A stretch of 64,000 nucleotides of DNA from Oscillatoria sp. FACHB-1407 (GTDB lineage Bacteria > Cyanobacteriota > Cyanobacteriia > Elainellales > Elainellaceae): assembly GCF_014697545.1 (NCBI RefSeq), contig NZ_JACJSA010000014.1:124001-188000 (forward strand), written 5' to 3'. The notes under the pieces are model-generated. The model was given only the letters and a program-made list of their open reading frames with translations, was not told where the DNA came from and did not search any database. The position numbers and the translations under genes were made by a program. Positions 53,450 through 64,000 of this stretch are shown in pieces. Every line of letters starts with the position of its first letter. Within the stretch, counting starts at the first letter, position 1.

Positions 53450-54001
53450 ATGAGTCAGCAAACCTTCCTAAAAGTACCTTTCGTGTGGGAAGAACCGAAA
53501 CCCCTGGTGGAAGTCCCATCGCGTTTGACGTTTGAGCCAGTCAAAGCAAAACATAGTGATCAATTAGTGTCAATTGTTGCGTGTATCATGGCGTTTTCGA
53601 TGGATGCGAGTGATCAAAGAAGAGCATCTGAGGATAATCCTCACACAGCGGTTGAAGCGTTTTTGAATTCAGCCAGGGATGACTTCTCGTATCAAGATGA
53701 CTGGTGGCAGTTTGGAATTAACGATAACGGAGATATTGTAGGGGTTGTCCTTCCTGTGACGTTCAATGGTTGTGCTAAAGGGGATTTAGAAGAAGGCACC
53801 CTCTATTACATGGGAGTCGTACCGGAGTATCGAGGATTTGGTTTTGCCAAAGATCTTTTGTTGCAAGGAACGCGGATATTGCAAGAGATCGGAGCTTGGC
53901 GAATATTTTGCGATACGGCCGTTGTGAATGTGCGAATGATTTCGGCATTCAAGCAGGTTGGCTATCGGCAGTATGGCGAACCCTGGGAACGCCCTGTTTA
54001 A
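53450..54001 (+). CDS. GNAT-family N-acetyltransferase
   Basis: 183 residues from ATG 53450 (a TTG at 53444 is also open). Acetyl-CoA motif A: LYYMGVVPEYRGFGFAKDLL, i.e. V-x-x-x-x-RGxGxA. The C-terminal MISAFKQVGYRQYGEPWERP fits the last strands. N-terminal QTFLKVPFVWEEPKPLVEVP is not typical and may bind the acceptor. Substrate unknown. Convergent with the LuxR gene 17 bp away. Confidence 0.85.
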   Translation: MSQQTFLKVPFVWEEPKPLVEVPSRLTFEPVKAKHSDQLVSIVACIMAFSMDASDQRRASEDNPHTAVEAFLNSARDDFSYQDDWWQFGINDNGDIVGVVLPVTFNGCAKGDLEEGTLYYMGVVPEYRGFGFAKDLLLQGTRILQEIGAWRIFCDTAVVNVRMISAFKQVGYRQYGEPWERPV

Positions 54002-54018
54002 TTGCTGCTTAGTTGTAC

Positions 54019-54735
54019 TTATTCTTGCAGGATATCCCTCAATTTTGCGACCATTTCTGTACGAGCGGAAACCCCTAGCTTGCGAAACATTCGCTTCAAC
54101 GCCTGTTTCACCGAATTCTGAGTAATCCAAAGCTCTGCCCCAATCTCAGCATTGGTTAGTCCTTCAGCAACCAACCTGGCAATCTGAATCTCGCGTGGCG
54201 TCAGACAATGGGAAAGTAGGTTTGGAGGGGGTGAGGCTGGTTTTCGTAGCCCCGCAAGACAGGCGGAGAGATGGGAGCAAACGGCTCCCAAACTTGCCAA
54301 CTCGTGAGGATTAAAGGCGGGTGTTTGTCCCACGCGAGCAAAGTGAATCGTACCAATTAACTGACCACTTCCCACAACGGGTCCTGTCATGATGTGTTCG
54401 TGGTCATATTCAGCGCAACACCGTTGATAGAGTTCACTCTGTTTCCACGTCCCCGTCGGTAACACTAACTCCTCATGGGCTGGAGCGTGATTCGCCAGAA
54501 CATACTGCAATACGGGGTCAACGGCTCTGCCAATTTGCTCATATCGCTCCACAAAAGCGTCAGAGACCCCAACCACATCAAAACTGGCTAGACGGTTCTC
54601 ATCCTCTAGCAGGTAAATTCCCCACCGTTGCACCCCAAAATAGTCACTAACGCCATCCATAAAGCGATCGCACAATGCCGCTTCGGTGGGAGCAGTAGCG
54701 ATCGCTTGAAACAAAGGGTGTAGAGAATGAGCCAT
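54019..54735 (-). CDS. LuxR-type regulator with GAF sensor
   Basis: 238 residues. GAF-like domain about 10-160 (FQAIATAPTEAALCDRFMDG, then FGVQRWGIYLLEDENRLASF and IMTGPVVGSGQLIGTIHFAR). C-terminal LuxR helix-turn-helix: LSHCLTPREIQIARLVAEGL, then TNAEIGAELWITQNSVKQAL. No receiver, so the GAF is the direct sensor of a ligand or redox state. It is divergent from the DJ-1-like gene, 97 bp apart, its probable target. Confidence 0.9.
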   Translation of the reverse strand: MAHSLHPLFQAIATAPTEAALCDRFMDGVSDYFGVQRWGIYLLEDENRLASFDVVGVSDAFVERYEQIGRAVDPVLQYVLANHAPAHEELVLPTGTWKQSELYQRCCAEYDHEHIMTGPVVGSGQLIGTIHFARVGQTPAFNPHELASLGAVCSHLSACLAGLRKPASPPPNLLSHCLTPREIQIARLVAEGLTNAEIGAELWITQNSVKQALKRMFRKLGVSARTEMVAKLRDILQE

Positions 54736-54832
54736 TGTTGGACTGAAAGTGTACCCACTTGAGGACTATCGAAGCTGAGAAGCTTTCCCTACAATCGTTC
54801 CACAATGAAGACACCTCAGGCAACTGTGAACC

Positions 54833-55534
54833 ATGAATCCGCTACAAATCGGCTTTTTGATCTATCCCGGAGTCATTCAACTGGACGTGATGGGTGCTTA
54901 CCAAGTTCTGGCATTTCCGCCCAATACCCAGGTTCACCTCATCTGGAAAACATTGTCTCCTGTAGTCAGCAATGAAGGCTTAATCCTGACTCCAACGACG
55001 ACTCTGGCAGAGTGCCCACCGTTAGATGTAATTTGTGTCCCCGGTGGTGGCATCGGACAAGTCGAAGTGGTGCAAGATGATGAAATTCTGCACTTTTTGA
55101 AACAACAAAGTATCACCGCTCAGTATGTGACGAGTGTCTGTACAGGTTCACTGATTTTAGCGGCGGCGGGTCTACTGCAAGGCTATCAAGCTACATGTCA
55201 CTGGGCATTTCGAGACCAACTGGCAATGCTTGGCGTTGAAGTTGTCCCGCACCGAGTGGTGATCGATCGCAATCGAGTTACAGGCGCAGGAGTCACTTCA
55301 GGAATTGATTTTGGGTTGACATTATTGGGGTTGCTGTGCGGAGAGCAGGTTGCAAAGATGACTCAACTGATGATGGAATATACGCCTGAACCGCCTTTTA
55401 ATGCAGGCACGCCAGAAACAGCGGGTGAGGAGGTTGTGCGATCGCTCATGCAGTTGGGTAAGCCTCTTCTGGATGCCTTTCAGACTCAGACCCAGAAGGT
55501 TGCTGCTCGGTTAAACGCACCTTCTCATGAGTAA
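54833..55534 (+). CDS. DJ-1/PfpI-family protein (isonitrile-hydratase-like)
   Basis: 233 residues. Begins QIGFLIYPGVIQLDVMGAYQ and has CVPGGGIGQVEVVQDDEILH, then the nucleophile elbow YVTSVCTGSLILAAAGLLQG with the reactive Cys, and TCHWAFRDQLAMLGVEVV. This pattern is that of isonitrile hydratase and related DJ-1/PfpI members without an AraC domain. Predicted hydration of isonitriles, or thiol/glyoxal chemistry; uncertain. Divergent GAF-LuxR regulator suggests inducible expression. Confidence 0.88.
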   Translation: MNPLQIGFLIYPGVIQLDVMGAYQVLAFPPNTQVHLIWKTLSPVVSNEGLILTPTTTLAECPPLDVICVPGGGIGQVEVVQDDEILHFLKQQSITAQYVTSVCTGSLILAAAGLLQGYQATCHWAFRDQLAMLGVEVVPHRVVIDRNRVTGAGVTSGIDFGLTLLGLLCGEQVAKMTQLMMEYTPEPPFNAGTPETAGEEVVRSLMQLGKPLLDAFQTQTQKVAARLNAPSHE

Positions 55535-55848
55535 CGCTTTACTGATCGGATGATTCATCCGTGCGTGGCACATTCAAAGCCTGTTCATCTAAAGAGCGGC
55601 AATCCTGGATGCAACCTTCAAGGAATTTTGGCACTCTGGAACCACAGGAACCGGATCGGTTTTTTCTGGTAGAAACCCCAGAGATTCTTAGAGCTGATTC
55701 ATAAACAAAGTTTTTGATCCCCCTGAAGTCTCCCTTTTTAAGGGGGACTTCAGTCTCTTGCCTGGGTTCCCTCCTTTTCAAGGGGGGTAGGGGGGGTCAA
55801 GCGATATCCAATGTTCTAGACCTTAAGATTTACTTTATAAATTAACTC
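55535..55848. other. Intergenic stretch with repeat
   Basis: 314 bp between DJ-1 and GFA genes. The right half is occupied by the CCCTCC-family repeat; no gene is evident. Confidence 0.45.
55716..55800. repeat. CCCTCC-family hairpin repeat, copy 3
   Basis: GATCCCCCTGAAGTCTCCC, a TTTTTAAGGGGGACTT stem, then CCCTCCTTTTCAAGGGGGG and GGGGGTC. Same organisation as 27449. Confidence 0.7.
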
Positions 55849-56259
55849 TTAATGGGCTGATGAAGCATCTCTCGGATCACAAATGCCCCACCATTTTGGA
55901 CGTTTTGAAACATAGGAATGGGACAACGGCGCAAGTTCCTGGCGGTTGGGTGAATCAAATGTTCCGACCGCGATCGCCAATGTTGGCTTATCGTCGATCG
56001 CTCCAATTGTGCTGCCGCAGACTGGGCAAAAGGCACGGCTTGACCACTCAGACGATCGCCACTTAGCAGGTGCTCCACCGGGTCCTGTCCATTCAACCTG
56101 ATTTTGCGAGAATTCGACCCACATTTGCGTCAGTGATCCCGAATGCTGTTGGCATTGCCGACAGGAGCAGGTGTGGGGCTTGAGCGCGGGTCCAGTTGCC
56201 ACAAAACGAATATTTCCACACAAACAACCACCCTCATAAATTTTGGGCTTTGCCATCAC
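55849..56259 (-). CDS. GFA-domain (glutathione-dependent formaldehyde-activating-like) protein
   Basis: 136 residues with the zinc-binding pattern of the GFA/CENP-V fold: GGCLCGNIRF, HTCSCRQCQQHSG and AFCPVCGSTIG. The family includes Gfa (S-hydroxymethylglutathione synthase), but most members are of unknown activity. AT 56256 a second ATG follows the first, either may be used. It stands between a repeat and a TetR gene on the same strand (33-bp gap), so it could be co-transcribed behind the TetR. Confidence 0.9.
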   Translation of the reverse strand: MMAKPKIYEGGCLCGNIRFVATGPALKPHTCSCRQCQQHSGSLTQMWVEFSQNQVEWTGPGGAPAKWRSSEWSSRAFCPVCGSTIGAIDDKPTLAIAVGTFDSPNRQELAPLSHSYVSKRPKWWGICDPRDASSAH

Positions 56260-56292
56260 ACATACTCCAGATCATTCTCGTGATACCTCATA

Positions 56293-56958
56293 TTATGTTT
56301 CTGGCAGAGGCTCCAGCACTTTGAACGCGATCGCATCTGCGTCATCGCTATCAACCCCCAATGATTTGAGAATTAACTTCGTTACTTGTTCTGGGTAGTG
56401 AAGTTCGCTATGTCCTTCCAGAATGGTGCGCATTGCCATCAGTGCTGTTCCTAAAACCAGATCGATCGCCGCTTGTGTACTCTCCACCTGAAATCGCTTC
56501 AGCCGTATTCCCGCTTCTAAATCCGACATCAAACCCCGTTCGATCGTTTCACTCAAAGGGGCTGCGACTAAGCCAATGCGAACAATCACCCATCCCCACG
56601 TCGCATCGCGCATGGCTTGGTGGAGAAACTGACGCAAACCGATCGCCATTCGTTCAGCGGGGTCTGCGATCGCTGCATATTGTGCCCAAATCTTTTGATT
56701 CATCACGTCACTTAAGGATGCGGCAACGGCTCTCAATACATCCTCACGGGTCTGGAAATAGTTGTAAAACGTTCCCCTGGAAACGCCTGCCTCGGCAATG
56801 ATGTCGTCAATGGTGACTGCATCCGTTTCTTTACGCGCAAAGACCCGATAGGCGGACTCGATGAGATGCGATCGCGTCCGTTCCCGTTTTTCCATGCCAA
56901 TGGAGGCTCGACGAGAGGGCTTCATGCAGCTTGCTTTGAATGATACCGACCCTAGCAT
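56293..56958 (-). CDS. TetR-family regulator of glycosyltransferase locus
   Basis: 221 residues from ATG 56958; ATG at 56925 (MKPSRRASIGMEKRERTRSH) is an alternative. HTH: LIESAYRVFARKETDAVTID, then IAEAGVSRGTFYNYFQTRED. C-terminal ligand domain unassigned. Two TGAC-N6-GTCA palindromes lie just upstream, between it and the divergent glycosyltransferase. Confidence 0.92.
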   Translation of the reverse strand: MLGSVSFKASCMKPSRRASIGMEKRERTRSHLIESAYRVFARKETDAVTIDDIIAEAGVSRGTFYNYFQTREDVLRAVAASLSDVMNQKIWAQYAAIADPAERMAIGLRQFLHQAMRDATWGWVIVRIGLVAAPLSETIERGLMSDLEAGIRLKRFQVESTQAAIDLVLGTALMAMRTILEGHSELHYPEQVTKLILKSLGVDSDDADAIAFKVLEPLPET

Positions 56959-56985
56959 ACCCTGCTGTTGACACCTTCATCAAAA

Positions 56986-57018
56986 TGACGCTATTGTCAA
57001 AATGACATAAACGTCATT
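56986..57018. promoter_or_regulatory. Paired TetR operators
   Basis: TGACGCTATTGTCA (56986-56999) and AATGACATAAACGTCATT (57001-57018): both are TGAC-N6-GTCA, one almost touching the other. They lie 28-60 bp from the TetR start and 45-77 bp before the glycosyltransferase ATG. Confidence 0.7.
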
Positions 57019-57062
57019 CTTGATCTGTAAGCTCCAGTCCATCAAAATAGGAGGCACCCGCG

Positions 57063-58334
57063 ATGCGTATTGCCATCATTGCTTTGGGGAGTCAGGGAGA
57101 TGTCCAACCTTACGTTGCCTTAGGGAAAGGGCTAAAAGCGGCAGGTTACGATGTCCGGTTGCTGACCCATGAGAACTTTGAGGGATTAGCCACGTCTCAC
57201 GGACTGACGTTTTATCCCATGCAGGGAAATGTACAAGAACTGATTGAAACGCCAGAAATGCGCGAACTTGCCGAGAAAGGGAATTTCATTACACTCACCT
57301 TACGGACGGCAAAAGAAAGCAAACAGGTCGCCATCGGATGGGCACAGGCAGGGCTAGAAGCTTGTCGAGGTATGGATTTACTGATCGCGGGTGTGGGAGG
57401 GCTTTATCTGGCACTGGCGATCGCAGAAAAGCTAGACATTCCGCTGCTGCAAGCCTTTGTGTTTCCCTTTACGCCAACCACAACCTTTCCAGGGATTTTG
57501 TTTCCGCCATCGATCGACCGCTTGGGCGGAATGGTGAACTGGCTCTCCCATCAAGCGTTACGTCAAATCATCTGGCAAGGCTCTCGTGCTGGCGATACCG
57601 CTGCCCGTCAGCAAGTTCTCAACTTACCCGCAGCTTCGTTTTTCGGTCCTCACCAGTCCCCCTATTTGCATCGTTTACCAACCCTCTATGGGTTCAGCCC
57701 TGCTGTGATTGCGAAGCCGTCAGATTGGCGAAATACCTTTGTCACAGGCTATTGGTTTTTGGATGCTGCACCTGATTGGACTCCCCCTCCTGACCTGGAG
57801 AACTTTTTGCAAGCGGGTTCGCCTCCGGTGTACATCGGCTTTGGCAGTATGGGCAATCGCAACCCTGAGGAAACTGCCGATCTGGTGTTGCAAGCCCTTG
57901 GGAAGACGGGACAACGGGCGATTCTATCGGCTGGGTGGAGTGGAATGCGAACCGAAAACCTGCCAGACACCGCTTTTCTCGTCAATTCGGTTCCCCATGC
58001 GTGGCTATTTCCACGAGTTGCGGCAGTGGTTCATCATGGAGGAGCCGGGACAACCGCCGCAGGACTTCGGGCAGGCGTTCCGACAGTGATTGTTCCATTT
58101 TTTGGCGATCAGGGCTTTTGGGGGCAACGGGTGGCAGACCTAGGCGTAGGAACAGCCCCCATTCCCCGCAAACGGCTTACGGTGGAACGGCTAGCAGAAG
58201 CGATTCAAACAGCGGTGGGCGATCGCTCAATGGGTCAGCGGGCAGCGAGTTTAGGAGAAAAAATGAGAGCCGAAAATGGAGTTGCGAATGCAGTAGCAAT
58301 CATTCAAACACTCGAAAATTTAAAGGTTGCGTAG
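57063..58334 (+). CDS. UDP-glucosyl/GT1-family glycosyltransferase
   Basis: 423 residues of the GT-B UGT fold. N-terminal acceptor domain: IAIIALGSQGDVQPYVALGK, HENFEGLATSHGLTFYPMQG. C-terminal donor domain: PPVYIGFGSMGNRNPEETAD, then AWLFPRVAAVVHHGGAGTTA and GVPTVIVPFFGDQGFWGQRV, the UGT signature with HGGAGT. Related to sterol/antibiotic glucosyltransferases; it transfers a sugar from a nucleotide sugar to a hydrophobic acceptor. TetR control suggests detoxification or modification of an exogenous compound. GGAGGC precedes the ATG. Confidence 0.92.
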   Translation: MRIAIIALGSQGDVQPYVALGKGLKAAGYDVRLLTHENFEGLATSHGLTFYPMQGNVQELIETPEMRELAEKGNFITLTLRTAKESKQVAIGWAQAGLEACRGMDLLIAGVGGLYLALAIAEKLDIPLLQAFVFPFTPTTTFPGILFPPSIDRLGGMVNWLSHQALRQIIWQGSRAGDTAARQQVLNLPAASFFGPHQSPYLHRLPTLYGFSPAVIAKPSDWRNTFVTGYWFLDAAPDWTPPPDLENFLQAGSPPVYIGFGSMGNRNPEETADLVLQALGKTGQRAILSAGWSGMRTENLPDTAFLVNSVPHAWLFPRVAAVVHHGGAGTTAAGLRAGVPTVIVPFFGDQGFWGQRVADLGVGTAPIPRKRLTVERLAEAIQTAVGDRSMGQRAASLGEKMRAENGVANAVAIIQTLENLKVA

Positions 58335-58368
58335 CTCAAACAACTGTGTAGTCTAAAACCTCCTGGGA

Positions 58369-60132
58369 TCACAAGCCCGCAATCCGCTGAAATTCTGTTT
58401 TGTAGTAGTGCAGTGTTTTTGGGTCAGAACAAACGAACCGAACAGTGCCGATCGCGGTATGACCAAGCAAGAATTGGCTCACCGTTTCAAAGGCGATTCG
58501 AGCAGCGCGATCGCCCGGAAAACCGAGCGCACCTGTCCCAATTGCTGGAAATGCGATTGAGTAAAGACCTTGGGATACTGCGAGTTCGAGGCAACTCCGA
58601 TAGCACTGTGCTAGCAGATCCTCCTCGCCGTGATTACCCCCCTGCCACGCCGGACAAACGGTATGGATAACATACAGTGCAGCCAATTTGAATCCAGGGG
58701 TGATTCTAGCTTCTCCTTCGTTACACCCATTCAATTGCCGACAGGCATCCAATAATTCAGATCCCGCTGCGCGATGAATGGCACTGGAAATTGCACCATT
58801 GTCAGACAGATAGCGATCGGTTGAATTGACGATCGCCTCTGTATCTTGTTGAGCGATATCACCGAGTTGGGGACCCCGATCAAAGGCATAAAATAAACTG
58901 GTGTGCCCACTACTCCGTCTACCGCTGCGGGTATAAGCCTGATGGGAAGCCATCTTGCGATAGCTAGAAAAGTTGCGTTTCTTTAATTCCTGATCCAAGT
59001 CCTGGAGGGCTGCCGCTTCTGGAGCAGACATGGGTGAGTTGACGCTCAACAGTTCCAGGCTCATCTCTTGAAGGACTCCGCTCGCTGCTCCATAGTCTCC
59101 TCGATCCACCAGGCGCACTGCCTCCTTCTTTGCCCGTGCAGCCATCATCAACGCGACCTGCTGCTGCACCTCCTGATTCAATGGAAATGCTTCAAGTTGA
59201 TGATTCGTAACCACTGGAAGCTGAAGAACGGCTTGGGTTTCCTGGGGGTGCTGCTCGTTATCTGTCCACATCAAACGGAAGCTGCATAGCTCCGTTTCCT
59301 GATTTAAGGCAGGAATTTTCAACCGAACCACGAGATCAATCGGACTATCAAAGATCAGGTTAGGGAGCTTAAAGTATCCTTTGCTATCCACATCCAGATC
59401 ATTGAGAACGTCAGCAACGACGACCTCTCCTTGCGGTTCAATAGCGATCGCAACACTCTTCCCAAACGTCGAAGCCAGTCCTTGAAGCTCCTGCTCAAAG
59501 ATACTGGGTAACTGCTCAGCAGAGGCAATGTAGTAGTAGTTGCCATCGCCACTCCGAGCCATCGCTTCTAACAAATCCTCGTTATAGTCATATCCCAACC
59601 CCATTGTGGAAGTACTGACTCCCCGCTGCGCTAATCCATGCACATCGGTTGCGATCGTGTCTGGATTGGTTTCGCCCACATTTGCCAAGCCATCCGACAG
59701 TAGAATCACCCGATTCAGTTCAGCGGTGAGAACCTGACTTACCTGAATACCCCCCTGAACCCAACCTGCGTGTAGAGCAGTACTGCCTCCGGGTTGTACC
59801 TGCTTCACCAAACGGGTCAAGCTCGCTTTGTTATTGGCTAGAGTGGTTGGAATTAAAGTCTGTACCTGATCATCAAAGATGGTGACACTGAGGCGATCGC
59901 TGGGGAGAAGTTGCTCAATTGCATAGCAAACTGCCTCTCTTGCGTAATCAATTTTTTTGTGACTGCCCATCGAGCCAGAACGGTCGATTACAAACCCAAT
60001 ATTGAGCGTGGGTCGCTGAGTCGTGGAAACAGGTGCTTGTGGGGGTGTAATTCGTATCACCAAATCGAGGGTAGTCGGTTGATTTAAGCCAACAGCAGCG
60101 CGCAAGGGAATGATGTTGATTTGAGGCATCAT
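58369..60132 (-). CDS. von Willebrand A - macrodomain fusion protein
   Basis: 587 residues. vWA domain about 43-215 with a complete metal-dependent adhesion site: D50-R-S-G-S54 in GFVIDRSGSMGSHKK, Thr118 in PGGSTALHAG, Asp147 in ILLSDGLANVG. A beta-rich and helical middle (215-415) follows, then an ADP-ribose-binding macrodomain at 421-587: QLGDIAQQDTEAIVNSTDRY, LSDNGAISSAIHRAAGSELL, and AFPAIGTGALGFPGDRAARI. Macrodomains bind or hydrolyse ADP-ribose marks. No signal or membrane segment, so it acts in the cytoplasm. It overlaps by 4 bp the MerR-like gene upstream, so both products are made together. The function of this pairing is not known to me. Confidence 0.88.
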   Translation of the reverse strand: MMPQINIIPLRAAVGLNQPTTLDLVIRITPPQAPVSTTQRPTLNIGFVIDRSGSMGSHKKIDYAREAVCYAIEQLLPSDRLSVTIFDDQVQTLIPTTLANNKASLTRLVKQVQPGGSTALHAGWVQGGIQVSQVLTAELNRVILLSDGLANVGETNPDTIATDVHGLAQRGVSTSTMGLGYDYNEDLLEAMARSGDGNYYYIASAEQLPSIFEQELQGLASTFGKSVAIAIEPQGEVVVADVLNDLDVDSKGYFKLPNLIFDSPIDLVVRLKIPALNQETELCSFRLMWTDNEQHPQETQAVLQLPVVTNHQLEAFPLNQEVQQQVALMMAARAKKEAVRLVDRGDYGAASGVLQEMSLELLSVNSPMSAPEAAALQDLDQELKKRNFSSYRKMASHQAYTRSGRRSSGHTSLFYAFDRGPQLGDIAQQDTEAIVNSTDRYLSDNGAISSAIHRAAGSELLDACRQLNGCNEGEARITPGFKLAALYVIHTVCPAWQGGNHGEEDLLAQCYRSCLELAVSQGLYSIAFPAIGTGALGFPGDRAARIAFETVSQFLLGHTAIGTVRFVCSDPKTLHYYKTEFQRIAGL

Positions 60133-60788
60133 GGCTTGGAGGACCTCCTCTTGAAAGTTGAAATTTTAGTGAGGGTTTGAAGTATTCGTTGCAGCAAATT
60201 TTGCTGCTCCTGAGAAGTCGAAGGCAAAACAAAGTCACTACGAACGTGAAGTTCTAATCCGGGCAAAATTTCCTGACGAATCCACTGGGTTGTTGAGGAT
60301 GGAGCGAGCGGTGATTGAGCGGAGGATAAGGAGGCGAGTTCTGAAGGTGACTGAAGTTTAGAGATTGACGGAGCGACATCGGATTGTCTTTTTTGGACTT
60401 GTTGCAGAAATGCCAGGGCTGGATTTGCCGGAGCAACGGTGAGCTGAACTCCTCCTTGTAGTAGTGCCTCCAATTCTGAATTACTTTTTGAACGAGCAAG
60501 CGTATCAATCACACTGGCTCCATAGCCTTCGGTGAGAAGTCGCCGTACCAACAACACTTGTAGCAAATGGCGGTAGATATATCGGGCTTCCCGTCCTTCT
60601 TTAAACGGCTCATCGAGCATTCCCTGGCTGGTGTAGTGCCTGACAAGCCTGGGAGTAACGTCCTCCCGCACCCTGGTATGCGCTTTTTCCTCTGGCAGAA
60701 ATTGGGGCAGTAGCTCGTTTGCGACCTGCACTAACTCCTCCAAAGACCAACTGGAATCCCGTTGGGCTAACTGTTGCAACGTTTTCAT
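60129..60788 (-). CDS. MerR-like DNA-binding protein coupled to vWA-macro protein
   Basis: 219 residues. Residues about 40-115 fit a MerR helix-turn-helix: TPRLVRHYTSQGMLDEPFKE, GREARYIYRHLLQVLLVRRL, then LTEGYGASVIDTLARSKSNS. The N-terminus (SWSLEELVQVANELLPQFLP) and the Ser/Gln-rich region (residues 130-170) are not typical of MerR. No conserved Cys set is seen, so metal sensing is unlikely. The stop codon overlaps the start of the vWA-macro gene (ATGA). Inverted repeats of TGACAAT type upstream suggest self-regulation. Confidence 0.8.
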   Translation of the reverse strand: MKTLQQLAQRDSSWSLEELVQVANELLPQFLPEEKAHTRVREDVTPRLVRHYTSQGMLDEPFKEGREARYIYRHLLQVLLVRRLLTEGYGASVIDTLARSKSNSELEALLQGGVQLTVAPANPALAFLQQVQKRQSDVAPSISKLQSPSELASLSSAQSPLAPSSTTQWIRQEILPGLELHVRSDFVLPSTSQEQQNLLQRILQTLTKISTFKRRSSKP

Positions 60789-60804
60789 ACATTCATGTTA
60801 ATCA

Positions 60805-60822
60805 TGACAATTTCTATTGTCA
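60805..60822. promoter_or_regulatory. Candidate operator of MerR-like gene
   Basis: Perfect 7-bp arms TGACAAT / ATTGTCA with a 4-bp centre, 17 bp before the ATG. A second palindrome, ACAATT-AA-AATTGT, lies at 60825-60838. The dense AT-rich symmetry is typical of a promoter-operator. Confidence 0.5.
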
Positions 60823-60959
60823 ATAACAATTAAAATTGTAAAAAAGCTAAGGTTGTAATTACACCAGATCGTTTGCTCATTCACTGCTCATCCACACTTG
60901 TCTTTTTCAGTTGCAGGTTGTTGTGTGTGGATTTAAGGGGGTAGATATTGGTACGTTTT

Positions 60960-61069
60960 GGTGGTGTTCCAAACCTGTTGATAACCTCTGTAAGACCCCC
61001 TGTAGTCCCCCTTACCAAGGGGGACGGCGACAGCCGGGGGTTAGTGGCAACAGATCTGAAACACTACCT
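60960..61069. mobile_element. 110-bp MITE-like element, copy 2
   Basis: Base-for-base identical to 33937-34046. Imperfect terminal inverted repeats of about 20 bp and a strong central stem. Identity over 27 kb suggests a recent move or gene conversion. No clear target duplication was found. Confidence 0.75.
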
Positions 61070-61120
61070 ATGGTATTTAATTCTGGAGAAGTATCTGTAA
61101 ATTTTTACCGTTTACGCATC

Positions 61121-61149
61121 AAAAAAATGCTCCCCAAAAGAGGAGCATT
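61121..61149 (-). terminator. Rho-independent terminator of psbA
   Basis: On the minus strand, stem AATGCTCC / GGAGCATT with an 8-nt loop is followed by T7. It lies 55 bp beyond the psbA stop. Confidence 0.85.
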
Positions 61150-61203
61150 GTCTTTTAAGCACTCATTAACTTACAACGACATCTACTGATCGCGATCGCC
61201 CTG

Positions 61204-62325
61204 TTAACTCACCAGTGAAGGTGCTTTCAGCGCAACCGGAATTGCTTCACCTGCCGCTAAGTCCAGGGGAAAATTATGAGCATTGCGCTCGTGCATCACT
61301 TCCATTCCCAGGTTGGCGCGATTCAGGATATCCGCCCAGGTGTTGATCACCCGTCCCTGGCTGTCTAACACTGACTGGTTAAAGTTAAACCCATTCAAGT
61401 TAAACGCCATTGTGCTAATGCCCAATGAAGTAAACCAGATACCAACAACAGGCCATGCACCCAGGAAGAAGTGTAAGGTGCGGCTATTAGCGTTCACCCC
61501 CAGAATAATTTCGTTGGTGCGTCCAACCAGGCGACCGAAGTAACCGTGAGCCGCCACAATGTTGTAGGTTTCCTCTTCTTGTCCAAACTTGTAACCGTTG
61601 TTCTGAGATTCAATTTCAGTTGTTTCCCGAACAAGGGAAGACGTGACCAGAGAACCATGCATTGCGCTAAATAAGGCTCCGCCAAACACCCCTGCGACAC
61701 CCAACATGTGAAACGGATGCATCAGGATATTGTGTTCAGCCTGGAACACGAACATAAAGTTGAACGTTCCACTGATGCCCAACGGCATTCCATCGGAGAA
61801 GGAACCTTGACCGATCGGGTAGATCAAAAAGACCGCAGTAGCCGCTGCAACAGGAGCCGAATACGCCACACAGATCCAGGGACGCATTCCCAGTCGGTAG
61901 CTCAACTCCCATTCGCGCCCCATGTACGCGAAGATCCCAATCAAAAAGTGCAGCACAACTAATTGATAGGGACCGCCATTGTAGAGCCACTCATCCAGAG
62001 AAGCGGCTTCCCAAATTGGGTAAAAGTGCAACCCGATCGCGTTAGAAGACGGAACAACTGCACCTGTAATGATGTTGTTGCCATACAGCAACGAACCAGC
62101 CACGGGTTCACGGATGCCGTCAATATCAACCGGAGGGGCGGCAATAAACGCGAGAACAAAACAAACAGTTGCAGAGAGCAGGGTAGGGATCATCAGCACG
62201 CCAAACCAGCCCACGTAGAGGCGATTTTCGGTGCTAGTAACCCAATTGCAAAACTGCTCCCATACATTGACGCGCACTGGTAAGTCAGCGCGTACGCTTT
62301 CGCGTCTCTGCGAGGTTGTAGTCAT
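61204..62325 (-). CDS. psbA: Photosystem II D1 protein, atypical isoform with altered QB loop
   Basis: 373 residues, against the usual 360. Numbering after the N-terminus is +8 (extra residues about 11-19). All core ligands remain: Tyr-Z Y169, D178, E197, H198, H345, E346, H350, D355 and A357 (Mn cluster and Tyr-Z partners), H206 (P680), H223 and H285 (non-heme iron), E138 (standard 130). The C-terminal processing site [10 protein letters not shown] is kept. The QB loop, in standard D1 IFQYASFN between FGRL and NSR, is [13 protein letters not shown], so Ser264 and Phe265, which contact plastoquinone, are lost and the loop is 5 residues longer. C125 is Ala. It is neither the microaerobic D1' (G80, F158, T286 are kept) nor a Mn-ligand-lacking rogue D1/ChlF. 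Divergent TetR at 62519 probably represses it. Confidence 0.95.
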
Positions 62326-62380
62326 GATGGTAGTAGGAAAAGAACGACAGTATCAGGCTAGCCAGCAACGCAAGAGCAAT

Positions 62381-62398
62381 TAACTAACCTGTTAGTTA
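62381..62398. promoter_or_regulatory. TetR operator 1 (psbA -10 / start region)
   Basis: Perfect 18-bp palindrome TAACTAACCTGTTAGTTA, overlapping the last base of the psbA -10 box and covering the likely start point. Same sequence as operator 2 except for the 2-bp centre. Confidence 0.85.
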
Positions 62399-62427
62399 GT
62401 ATAAGAAGAGGCGGCTTTTCCTGTCAA
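62398..62427 (-). promoter_or_regulatory. sigma70-type promoter of psbA
   Basis: On the minus strand TTGACA (62422-62427) and TATACT (62398-62403) are 18 bp apart (or TTATAC at 17 bp). A perfect -35 and 5/6 -10 make it strong by itself. The leader to ATG is about 65 nt. Confidence 0.8.
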
Positions 62428-62431
62428 TAAC

Positions 62432-62449
62432 TAACTAACAAGTTAGTTA
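62432..62449. promoter_or_regulatory. TetR operator 2 (upstream of psbA -35)
   Basis: Perfect 18-bp palindrome TAACTAACAAGTTAGTTA, 4 bp upstream of the psbA -35 and 69 bp before the TetR start. The two operators are 51 bp apart (five helical turns), so bound dimers lie on the same face. Confidence 0.85.
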
Positions 62450-62518
62450 ATCTAAATGTGAGTGGCAGGTCAAGATAGTCGGTAGCAAGGAAGGCACTGT
62501 ATCCTGAGTAAGGACAGT

Positions 62519-63175
62519 GTGGAGCAGGTAGTAAAGTTGGCGGCAAAAACAGGACGATCTCCGACGCGGCAAACTCGTGATGCAGAAGCAACGAAAGCCC
62601 AAATTCTCGATGCGGCAGAGGAGGAATTTGCCCGTTTTGGCTTAATGGCTGCACGAACCGAGGTCATTGCCTCTAAAACGGGCGTGACAAAAGCCATGAT
62701 CTACTACTACTTCGGTAGTAAAGAAGAACTTTATCAGGCAGTGCTAAAACGTCATGCCACAACATTTCTGAATACGGTTGCACAGTTGAACTTGCAGGAA
62801 CTTTCCCCCGAAGAGGCACTGAAGCAAGTCATCCGAGCGGCGATCGCCCATGAGGTGGCATACCCCAATCAGGGAAAAATCCTGCTCCATGAAGCCATGC
62901 AGAATGAAGGAAAGTATTTTAAGCTGACCGGGTGGGAGGCTCCAATCGGGCTGGGAATGCAGCTTTTACAAAAAGGCATTGATGAAGGATATTTCTGCCC
63001 CCACAATCCCTGGTTGATGATGATCCACATTATGGGAATCACAACTTTCTACTTTAATGCGGAGAATAATCTCAGAAACGTGAACCCCGATTGGCAATGG
63101 CGCACACCAGAAGCCCTTGAAGAACTCACGAAATCGGCGATCGCGTTGATTCTTGGAGGTTTGAAGAAGACTTAA
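62519..63175 (+). CDS. TetR-family regulator, probable repressor of psbA
   Basis: 218 residues from GTG 62519 with AAGGA just upstream. HTH about 25-70: AQILDAAEEEFARFGLMAAR, then VIASKTGVTKAMIYYYFGSK. The C-terminal ligand domain has AHEVAYPNQGKILLHEAMQN and WLMMIHIMGITTFYFNAENN, with aromatic residues that could line a hydrophobic pocket. Divergent from psbA with two operators between; it probably represses both itself and psbA, with release by a small molecule, perhaps a quinone-like or photosynthesis-inhibiting compound (inference). Followed by a convergent AraC gene. Confidence 0.92.
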   Translation: MEQVVKLAAKTGRSPTRQTRDAEATKAQILDAAEEEFARFGLMAARTEVIASKTGVTKAMIYYYFGSKEELYQAVLKRHATTFLNTVAQLNLQELSPEEALKQVIRAAIAHEVAYPNQGKILLHEAMQNEGKYFKLTGWEAPIGLGMQLLQKGIDEGYFCPHNPWLMMIHIMGITTFYFNAENNLRNVNPDWQWRTPEALEELTKSAIALILGGLKKT

Positions 63176-63186
63176 TGCTCATCGAT

Positions 63187-64000
63187 CTACACCGATTGAC
63201 GTTTCAAAAATTCTTTAGGCGTGACCCCCACTAAGCGTTTGAAGTGACGGCTAAGATGGCTTTGATGGCTAAATCCTAGATTCAAGGCAACCTCAGCTAC
63301 ACTCATTCCCTGCAAAAGCAATTGTTTTGCTCGATTGATTCTGCACTGAATCACATATTGATGCGGAGTGAGTCCTGTGGATTGTTTGAATAAAGCAGAA
63401 AAATAACTGGGACTGAGGTGAGCGATCGCCGCTAGAGACATTAACGTCAAGTTCTGATCCAAGTGGTGATCAATGTACGCCATGACTTGTTTCAACTGTT
63501 GTTGGGATAATCCCTGGAGTGGTAGATTAATTAACTTTTGTGTTGAATAGTGGCGTAATAAATGAGTGACAAGTGTTGTCGTGAGTGACTCAACATAAAG
63601 ATGATTTTCTGATTCATGATTCTCAAGCTCAGATTTGAGTGCCCACCCAATTCCATAAATGAGCGGATCAGCTCGGCTAAAACTGGGAATGAGTTCAGGA
63701 TTGCTGGTGGAGATCCTTTCAGGTGTGTATTGTTCAAAAAGGGTTGAATTGAATTTAAGCAGAATAAAGTGGCATTCCTTCTCCCATATCGCCCCGTTAT
63801 AGACATGAGCCGGAATGACTGTAATATCTCCCGGTTTTGTTTGCTCAAATTCAAAACGCTGTGGCGGCAAGTATTCAACGAGGGGAGACAATAATTGCTG
63901 TGTATGAATGATAATTTGAGACTCGTTTAAAGCATTCTCAGGAACTTGATGGGGAGGTTGCTGATGATATTCCAGATGAAGTCCACTCCACTGGGTGCGA
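63187..64000 (-). CDS. AraC-family regulator, 5' end cut by window
   Basis: The frame stays open to the window edge: just inside it reads WSGLHLEYHQQPPHQVPENA, a typical AraC cupin start, so a TTG at 63891 is not the true start. About 270 residues are seen. C-terminal helix-turn-helices: LTLMSLAAIAHLSPSYFSAL, then MSVAEVALNLGFSHQSHLSR, closing FKRLVGVTPKEFLKR. Like the AraC proteins at 11750 and 16233 it belongs to a cupin-type sensor group. Its target lies probably outside the window. Confidence 0.9.
   Translation of the reverse strand, partial: RTQWSGLHLEYHQQPPHQVPENALNESQIIIHTQQLLSPLVEYLPPQRFEFEQTKPGDITVIPAHVYNGAIWEKECHFILLKFNSTLFEQYTPERISTSNPELIPSFSRADPLIYGIGWALKSELENHESENHLYVESLTTTLVTHLLRHYSTQKLINLPLQGLSQQQLKQVMAYIDHHLDQNLTLMSLAAIAHLSPSYFSALFKQSTGLTPHQYVIQCRINRAKQLLLQGMSVAEVALNLGFSHQSHLSRHFKRLVGVTPKEFLKRQSV

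Follow-up and report, generated by a model that had tools for sequence, protein, structure and literature searches.

A D1 with a rebuilt QB loop beside a divergent TetR-family gene: a candidate for inducible replacement of the photosystem II inhibitor target in cyanobacteria

In the D1 subunit of photosystem II, the product of psbA, Ser264 and Phe265 hold the secondary quinone QB by hydrogen bonding (PMC4030317). Of the two photosystem II herbicide classes, one is described as binding at Ser264, and changes of this residue as giving resistance to triazines, ureas and triazinones; the QB niche is lined by F211, L218, F255, F265, L271, F274 and L275 (PMC8398153). The Chlamydomonas S264K mutant is reported to be triazine-resistant, with impaired electron transfer (PMC6170454). 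In a 2025 survey of the D1 groups (G0 to G4, far-red and INT), the S264/F265 region is described as structurally well conserved across groups, and rogue D1, ChlF and G0 as having lost the Mn ligands (PMC12096807). Here we consider a psbA gene of Oscillatoria sp. FACHB-1407, carried by a 64,000-nucleotide stretch of contig NZ_JACJSA010000014.1 (positions 124,001 to 188,000, hereafter the window), and the TetR-family gene that stands divergently beside it. The S264/F265 region is replaced in this D1 and across a whole clade, the water-oxidation ligands are kept, and the gene is apparently under a dedicated chemical switch.

The psbA gene (window positions 61204..62325, minus strand) is a complete open reading frame of 373 codons with a Photo_RC domain, and its product passes the psbA equivalog model TIGR01151 with 752 bits for a cut-off of 596. 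A sequence-only reading had claimed that the eight standard residues between FGRL and NSR (259-266, IFQYASFN, including Ser264 and Phe265) are replaced by thirteen. Translation of the frame and comparison with standard D1s bear this out, the codons concerned spanning 61489..61527 on the minus strand. Since the conserved QB loop with Ser264 and Phe265 is absent, the protein is best filed as a D1 variant rather than as a standard member. The window genome also encodes two other full-length D1s (L002 and L003), both with the standard FGRL-IFQYASFN-NSR arrangement, and the D1s of viral contigs have the standard loop at 80 of 80 loci examined.

Outside the loop, proteins of this kind (loop-D1s) resemble ordinary D1s. 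The residues D59, E65, Y161, D170, E189, H190, H198, H215, H252, H272, H332, E333, H337, D342 and A344 are identical in all 17 loop-D1s and all 25 standard D1s compared. As had been read from the window copy, the Mn4CaO5 ligands (D170, E189, H332, E333, H337, D342 and A344), Tyr161/His190 of Tyr-Z, the P680 ligand His198, the iron ligands His215/His272 and the C-terminal processing site are thus kept in 17/17 loop-D1s, and so are H215, H252, L218 and F255 around the quinone. Positions found in at least 90% of loop-D1s and in at most 10% of the 25 standard D1s lie solely inside the loop. The window D1 without its loop is 93% identical to the nearest standard D1, and five loop-D1s checked in this way give 90-94%. 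Two further peculiarities noted earlier are present but incidental: alanine at position 125 occurs in 11 of the 17 loop-D1s and also in 4 of the 25 standard D1s, and the eight additional residues near the N-terminus (approximately 62255-62283) are limited to the window copy among the D1s compared.

Of the described D1 groups, a match to which would have counted against the sequence-only reading, ChlF, rogue D1, G0, D1INT and D1FR are rejected on residues. ChlF, rogue D1 and G0 do not fit because the window D1 keeps its Mn ligands. D1INT is reported to carry Trp126 and Trp260, and D1FR Tyr120 and Thr155 (PMC9740203). The window D1 has Tyr126 and Gly260; Leu120 is found in 17/17 loop-D1s, and Thr155, although present, is also found in the standard reference. 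No photosystem or phycobilisome gene of a far-red light photoacclimation (FaRLiP) cluster was recognised by eye among the open reading frames of positions 54000-64000, the rest of the contig and genome not being searched. A resemblance of the motif LVGRT to the QB segment of the purple-bacterial L subunit was considered and set aside by eye, the spacing to the iron histidine seeming unfit. In the literature consulted on this D1, its group, the TetR and the pocket, no description of the loop or of a TetR-controlled psbA was recognised, an earlier mention being possible. The 13-residue loop together with the TetR arrangement would therefore be a variant of D1 with a regulatory layout that we did not find described.

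Loop-D1s were found in 6 of 60 related genomes searched, the window genome included, in 6 of 36 genomes at the level of the order (E 1e-13) and in 2 of 386 genomes of a phylum sample (E 1e-9, up to 20 candidates per genome scored). A scan of genome contigs with the loop only gave 17 loci, 16 of which are cyanobacterial D1s in records named Leptolyngbya, Nodosilinea, Adonisia, Halomicronema and others; the seventeenth (L146, Saccharibacteria, 63% over a short query) was dropped as not being a D1 match of interest. Leptolyngbya sp. PCC 6406 and PCC 7375 are culturable carriers. Together with the window and one locus of the phylum sample (L147), 18 loci were examined, and their loop consensus is [VI]GRTNE-x-[IL]LG-x2-ANSR. 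The loop is thus present in other cyanobacteria, as the sequence-only reading had asked. The 17 other loci were found via this motif, the presence of which reflects selection by the search, but the same does not hold for synonymous variation: at the fixed loop residues, the codons of the 18 loci differ synonymously, which is a mark of selection on the protein. Two TetR-linked D1s found later deviate from the motif, at L336 (LIGRMNEVVLGTQANSR) and at L350 (LLGRTNEIIGAKANSR).

In a tree including the loop columns, loop-D1s form one group (100/99) among ordinary D1s, the comparison with D1' (G3) being made without a named G3 reference. Seven divergent D1s of the sample group away from them. This placement, like the retained residues, fits the earlier proposal that this D1 supports oxygen evolution and has its QB site altered. 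Three viral rows that proved to be D2 were left out of the tree with the loop columns, and the seven divergent D1s were omitted from the loop-free tree; L145 and L122, where psbA is cut by a contig end, were kept out of the TetR, residue and tree counts.

The strongest clue to function, overlooked by the sequence-only reading, is the neighbouring regulator. The TetR-family gene (62519..63175, plus strand) encodes 218 residues from a GTG codon, the true start being maybe a few codons further in, and carries PF00440 (TetR_N) and PF17938 (TetR_C_29). It diverges from psbA across 193 bases. A divergent TetR homologue is found beside the loop-D1 gene at 15 of the 17 loci readable upstream, L145, whose contig stops within psbA, being left out. 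Over the 18 loci, psbA is counted 18 times, TetR 15 times and the next family four times, so that no third gene recurring in more than 4/18 loci points to a wider operon or biosynthetic cluster. A terminator-like hairpin directly 3' of psbA (61126..61149, minus strand) suggests a single-gene transcript; it is a pattern match only, with five such sites in the region for 2.5 expected by chance.

Searching from the side of the regulator leads back to altered D1s. In a search of 388 genomes, 26 newly fetched loci were read, several of which look like the same organisms as in the loop scan. Of the 14 closest TetR relatives among them (59-88% identity), 13 adjoin a loop-D1 and the fourteenth a D1 fragment at a contig end. 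No standard-loop D1 was found beside the TetR relatives of these 26 loci. At L350, the neighbour of the TetR (52%) is a D1 with changes throughout its niche. The remaining 11 relatives (43-55%) have no D1 in about 3.6 kb; their neighbours are Rieske proteins in six cases (two confirmed by Pfam, the rest by motif) and a glycosyltransferase-like protein and a STAND protein in one case each, while three have another divergent neighbour or none that is recognisable. Paralogues of the TetR in G016 and G063 adjoin one Rieske protein each and, once in G063, a flavin adenine dinucleotide (FAD)-dependent oxidoreductase recognised by Pfam; contig ends cut off two further paralogues in G017. The wider TetR family thus seems linked with enzymes that might modify aromatic or foreign compounds, which is a lead and not a proof. 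It may be added that TetR paralogues at L172, L176, L351, L353, L356, L358, L359 and L360 are divergent from a conserved Rieske protein, and that the loop-D1 cassette of PCC 6406 has a similar Rieske gene nearby (L134:6319-7353).

The intergenic region carries two copies of the palindrome TAACTAACNNGTTAGTTA. The predicted psbA promoter has a -35 box TTGACA (62422..62427, minus strand), found at the same place in 15/15 TetR-bearing loci, and a -10 box TATACT (62398..62403, minus strand), with 11 of 12 consensus matches and an 18-nt spacer. Operator 1 (62432..62449) stands immediately upstream of the -35 box, and operator 2 (62381..62398) overlaps the last base of the -10 box. The pattern TAACTAAC-NN-GTTAGTTA is found twice in the window for 0.01 expected. 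At all 15 TetR-bearing loci, a copy of operator 2 with at most two mismatches keeps the same register, starting 28-29 nt after the start of TTGACA, where the -10 box ends; an upstream copy of the same quality is found in 9 of the 15 TetR-bearing intergenic stretches, as cut here. At one locus, CCP2 (L143), an additional stretch of about 1.1 kb lies between TetR and the promoter, and the operators remain with psbA. The 8.13-Mb window genome has two exact operators, both at this promoter. Allowing at most one mismatch in seven genomes, operators are limited to this promoter in the window genome (G000), G010, G021 and G063 and are absent from G003, G016 and G017, the promoter of G016 lying beyond a contig end. 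Sites with two mismatches elsewhere in the window genome are no commoner than those of a reversed control pattern, which gives no sign of a wider regulon. At the two loci without TetR (L130 and L135), no operator was found within four mismatches in the 350 nt upstream of psbA. The sequence thus shows both a TetR_N helix-turn-helix domain in the regulator and palindromic operators at the promoter of its presumed target, and this geometry predicts repression of psbA, with psbA, perhaps also tetR, as the main target.

At L130 and L135, the place of TetR is taken by a divergent NACHT or NB-ARC protein with WD40 repeats, of the STAND type. A comparable arrangement is found in another family: three Gloeobacter-type genomes have a second altered D1, GYISRLVFQYFAFWGANSR or, at L211, GYISRLVFQTFAFWGANSR, with a FAFWGANSR loop, S264A, F255I and G256S, Ser264 being gone. 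These genes (L178:5894-6982, L210:6259-7347 and L211:6096-7184) have a divergent NB-ARC/WD40 protein in 3/3 cases. The L178 genome is probably that of Gloeobacter violaceus PCC 7421, in which the altered psbA would be glr2656. As a control, 37 standard psbA loci of about 8 kb were gathered from genomes with and without loop-D1, one of them (L239) being dropped for having no upstream DNA. No homologue of TetR or STAND stands beside psbA in any of the 36 readable loci, with models at E 1e-5 and also at E 10; the models recover the known cases, including two TetRs (L336 and L350) that took no part in model building. Of the loci whose QB loop has an altered length, 20 are readable upstream, and each of them has a regulator-like neighbour (15 TetR, 2 + 3 STAND). 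The contrast of 20/20 with 0/36 gives a Fisher value of 1e-15, which is not a true probability, the loci being related and not independent.

Change in the relatives of the window D1 also reaches the QB niche outside the loop. We compared 245 columns invariant in the 25 standard D1s, using a niche list of ten positions of our own choice made of the literature residues plus M214, H215, A251 and H252. Columns changed in at least five of the 17 loop-D1s amount to 3/10 in the niche and 2/235 elsewhere (p=0.0005); for the Gloeobacter-type form, the 245 columns give 4/10 and 15/235 (p=0.004), all these p values being optimistic because the sequences are related. Six related loop-D1s carry both F211I and L275M, as does the Gloeobacter-type form, and five other loop-D1s carry F274L. 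The D1 at L350 (G490:C5; L362:8349-9443), which has TetR and operators, goes further: with its shorter loop, it carries F211L, M214L, F255L, G256S, L271N, F274I and L275F, and keeps H215, H252 and H272.

Taken together, these features incline us, by a modest margin over even chances, to regard the loop-D1 as an oxygen-evolving substitute, made on induction, for the D1 that QB-site inhibitors hit. The 13-residue loop would rebuild the QB and herbicide niche of a D1 that retains water splitting. The dedicated divergent TetR, bound to palindromic operators flanking and overlapping the promoter, would normally keep this psbA shut. Release of the TetR would come from a small molecule blocking the ordinary QB site, or from something that this molecule brings about; the molecule would probably be an aromatic or quinone-like allelochemical of natural origin, and perhaps in some cases a herbicide. 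The altered D1 would then enter photosystem II as D1 is turned over, so that oxygen would still be evolved and plastoquinone still be reduced, probably less efficiently. Because D1 is continually replaced, a new D1 would rescue photosystem II, and its lower efficiency would account for the gene being kept off otherwise. A D1 that is resistant but costly is expected to be produced on demand, and a poison-sensing TetR over one gene fits this expectation. What the sequence shows is the loop, the retained catalytic residues, the conserved pairing of the two genes, the operators in register with the predicted promoter, their restriction to one place in the genome and the parallels elsewhere; from these we infer that the TetR represses psbA, responds to a ligand and permits induction, and that the D1 enters photosystem II and confers resistance. 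Inhibitor tolerance, a guess of the sequence-only reading, appears strengthened by the TetR with its operators, by the STAND proteins at differently altered D1s and by the niche changes of relatives. In broader terms, we give an even chance to chemically inducible target replacement in cyanobacterial photosynthesis, borne by a two-gene cassette, the same logic having arisen separately in the Gloeobacter type with a STAND-type regulator.

If so, photosystem II could function with a QB loop very unlike the standard one. This would point to natural selection by photosystem II poisons and to chemical warfare aimed at the QB site. The cassette would be a natural form of inducible resistance to photosystem II inhibitors and a ready-made sensor for such poisons. 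It would also allow the parts of the QB site that quinone reduction requires to be told apart, by direct test, from those that matter for inhibitor binding only.

Several observations weigh against inhibitor-target replacement. The window copy has standard niche residues outside the loop, so that the argument from F211, F274 and L275 rests on relatives. F211I and L275M, which share the six related sequences that carry them, may go back to a single event, and a looser count, admitting any change in one of 17 loop-D1s, is weaker (3/10 versus 17/235, p=0.04). The structure prediction proposed earlier gave no usable model, the mean predicted local distance difference test (pLDDT) score being 38.9 for 35 D1 rows and 46.2 for 50 D1+D2 rows; these models, which were not used, run a single helix through the loop at about 250-275, and even for Synechocystis D1 AlphaFold is reported to place the DE loop differently from the solved structure (PMC12096807). 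When the loop columns are removed from the tree, loop-D1s split into two groups, a single clade not being rejected by the approximately unbiased test (p-AU 0.33); gene conversion with resident copies, or two origins, is possible. The promoter scan gives two such sites in the region for 1.9 expected by chance. On the side of the regulator, the TetR is not RutR, its best NCBIfam score being 74 bits for TIGR03613, with a cut-off of 368, the Rieske and FAD-dependent neighbours of its relatives are identified by domain only, and no inhibitor-making gene recurs beside the cassette at the 18 loci. The correlation of TetR and D1 distances is weak, 0.02 for 15 loci and 0.29 for 14 loci (29 of 2000 permutations as high). 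Finally, the altered D1 of G040 (L179:6306-7463; GYLGRVFWQAISF) has F255L and Trp260 by substitutions only, with Ser264 kept and no length change, and ordinary neighbours without TetR or STAND, which counts against a strict rule linking altered D1s to regulators. This D1 groups with the D1 of G000:C31.

Among the other explanations, an artefact, frameshift, assembly error or decaying pseudogene has next to no chance of being right. As the sequence-only reading had stated, there is no frameshift around the loop: the frame is open inside a 199,796-bp contig, and the motif recurs at 17 other loci with synonymous variation, so that an error, named at the outset as what could undo the claim, is ruled out. 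Nothing was found in its favour, the psbA pieces cut at contig ends of the window genome (start of C21 and end of C30) being other genes. These pieces possibly represent collapsed near-identical psbA copies. The main rival is redox tuning under a metabolic signal, which would leave much the same pattern. The loop-D1 would then be a physiological isoform, the TetR sensing an internal metabolite or stress product and the loop retuning the QB redox potential or quinone exchange, with tolerance at most a side effect. Known D1 isoforms serve low oxygen, high light or heat; however, a local TetR with a single genomic operator cluster is unlike the known light- and redox-controlled psbA genes. D1INT transcripts are reported to rise with temperature (PMC9740203), and H252, H215 and F255, kept in 17/17 loop-D1s, could allow protonation of QB. 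Nevertheless, changes in the relatives cluster at residues that contact inhibitors, S264A and F255I of the Gloeobacter-type form among them, and we find such an isoform rather unlikely, though a serious contender.

Next comes a QB-inactive photosystem II, where the loop would block plastoquinone exchange and leave a water-splitting, acceptor-limited centre for protection, signalling or electron delivery elsewhere. Ser264 and Phe265, described as hydrogen-bonding QB (PMC4030317), are gone from loop-D1s, and the S264K mutant of Chlamydomonas is reported to be strongly slowed (PMC6170454). On the other hand, H215, H252, L218 and F255 are kept throughout, and so strictly conserved a loop suggests a specific function, even if conservation alone leaves a QB-inactive centre standing; we hold it improbable. 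A different quinone or second ligand might also be imagined, the loop fitting another endogenous quinone or a lipid of special conditions sensed by the TetR. The L350 D1, which changes much of the niche lining and keeps H215, H252 and H272, would suit it, but no quinone-modifying gene recurs beside the cassette and the window copy is changed in the loop only, so that its chances appear very small.

Around the cassette, a MerR-like gene (60129-60788) adjoins a gene encoding a von Willebrand A domain fused to a Macro domain (58369-60132). A UDP-glycosyltransferase-like gene with an EryCIII-like C-terminus lies at 57063-58334, a few kb from the cassette, and the TetR relative at L354 adjoins another glycosyltransferase-like gene. 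Elsewhere in the genome, G000:C14:99446-99625 gives a short PF00421 (CP43/IsiA-type) match with an internal stop.

Compared with known systems, the loop-D1 is closest to standard D1 (G4, a label of our own, the trees holding no named reference, including no named G3). It shares the body, the Mn and cofactor ligands, E130, C-terminal processing and the grouping in trees, whereas standard D1 keeps residues 259-266 and lacks a TetR or STAND neighbour at the readable control loci. Rogue D1 (G2), ChlF (G1) and G0 are alike as paralogous psbA genes, and D1INT and D1FR as extra isoforms related to G4. With herbicide-resistant psbA mutants it shares the loss of Ser264, and relatives of the window D1 also change F211, F255, F274 or L275. 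However, those mutants are point mutations of a working gene, whereas here a clade retains a replacement of the whole loop, borne by an additional gene with a regulator of its own, resistance being the presumed outcome. The divergent psbA of Gloeobacter (L178) is alike in its QB-loop insertion, its loss of Ser264 and its divergent regulator-like neighbour, but its FAFWGANSR loop is two residues longer than standard and its neighbour is of the NB-ARC/WD40 type rather than a TetR. Finally, tetR-tetA combines a divergent regulator, operators in the shared intergenic region and a single target. The layout is the same in the present cassette; the target is an efflux pump in that case and, if repression occurs as predicted, a photosystem subunit in this one.
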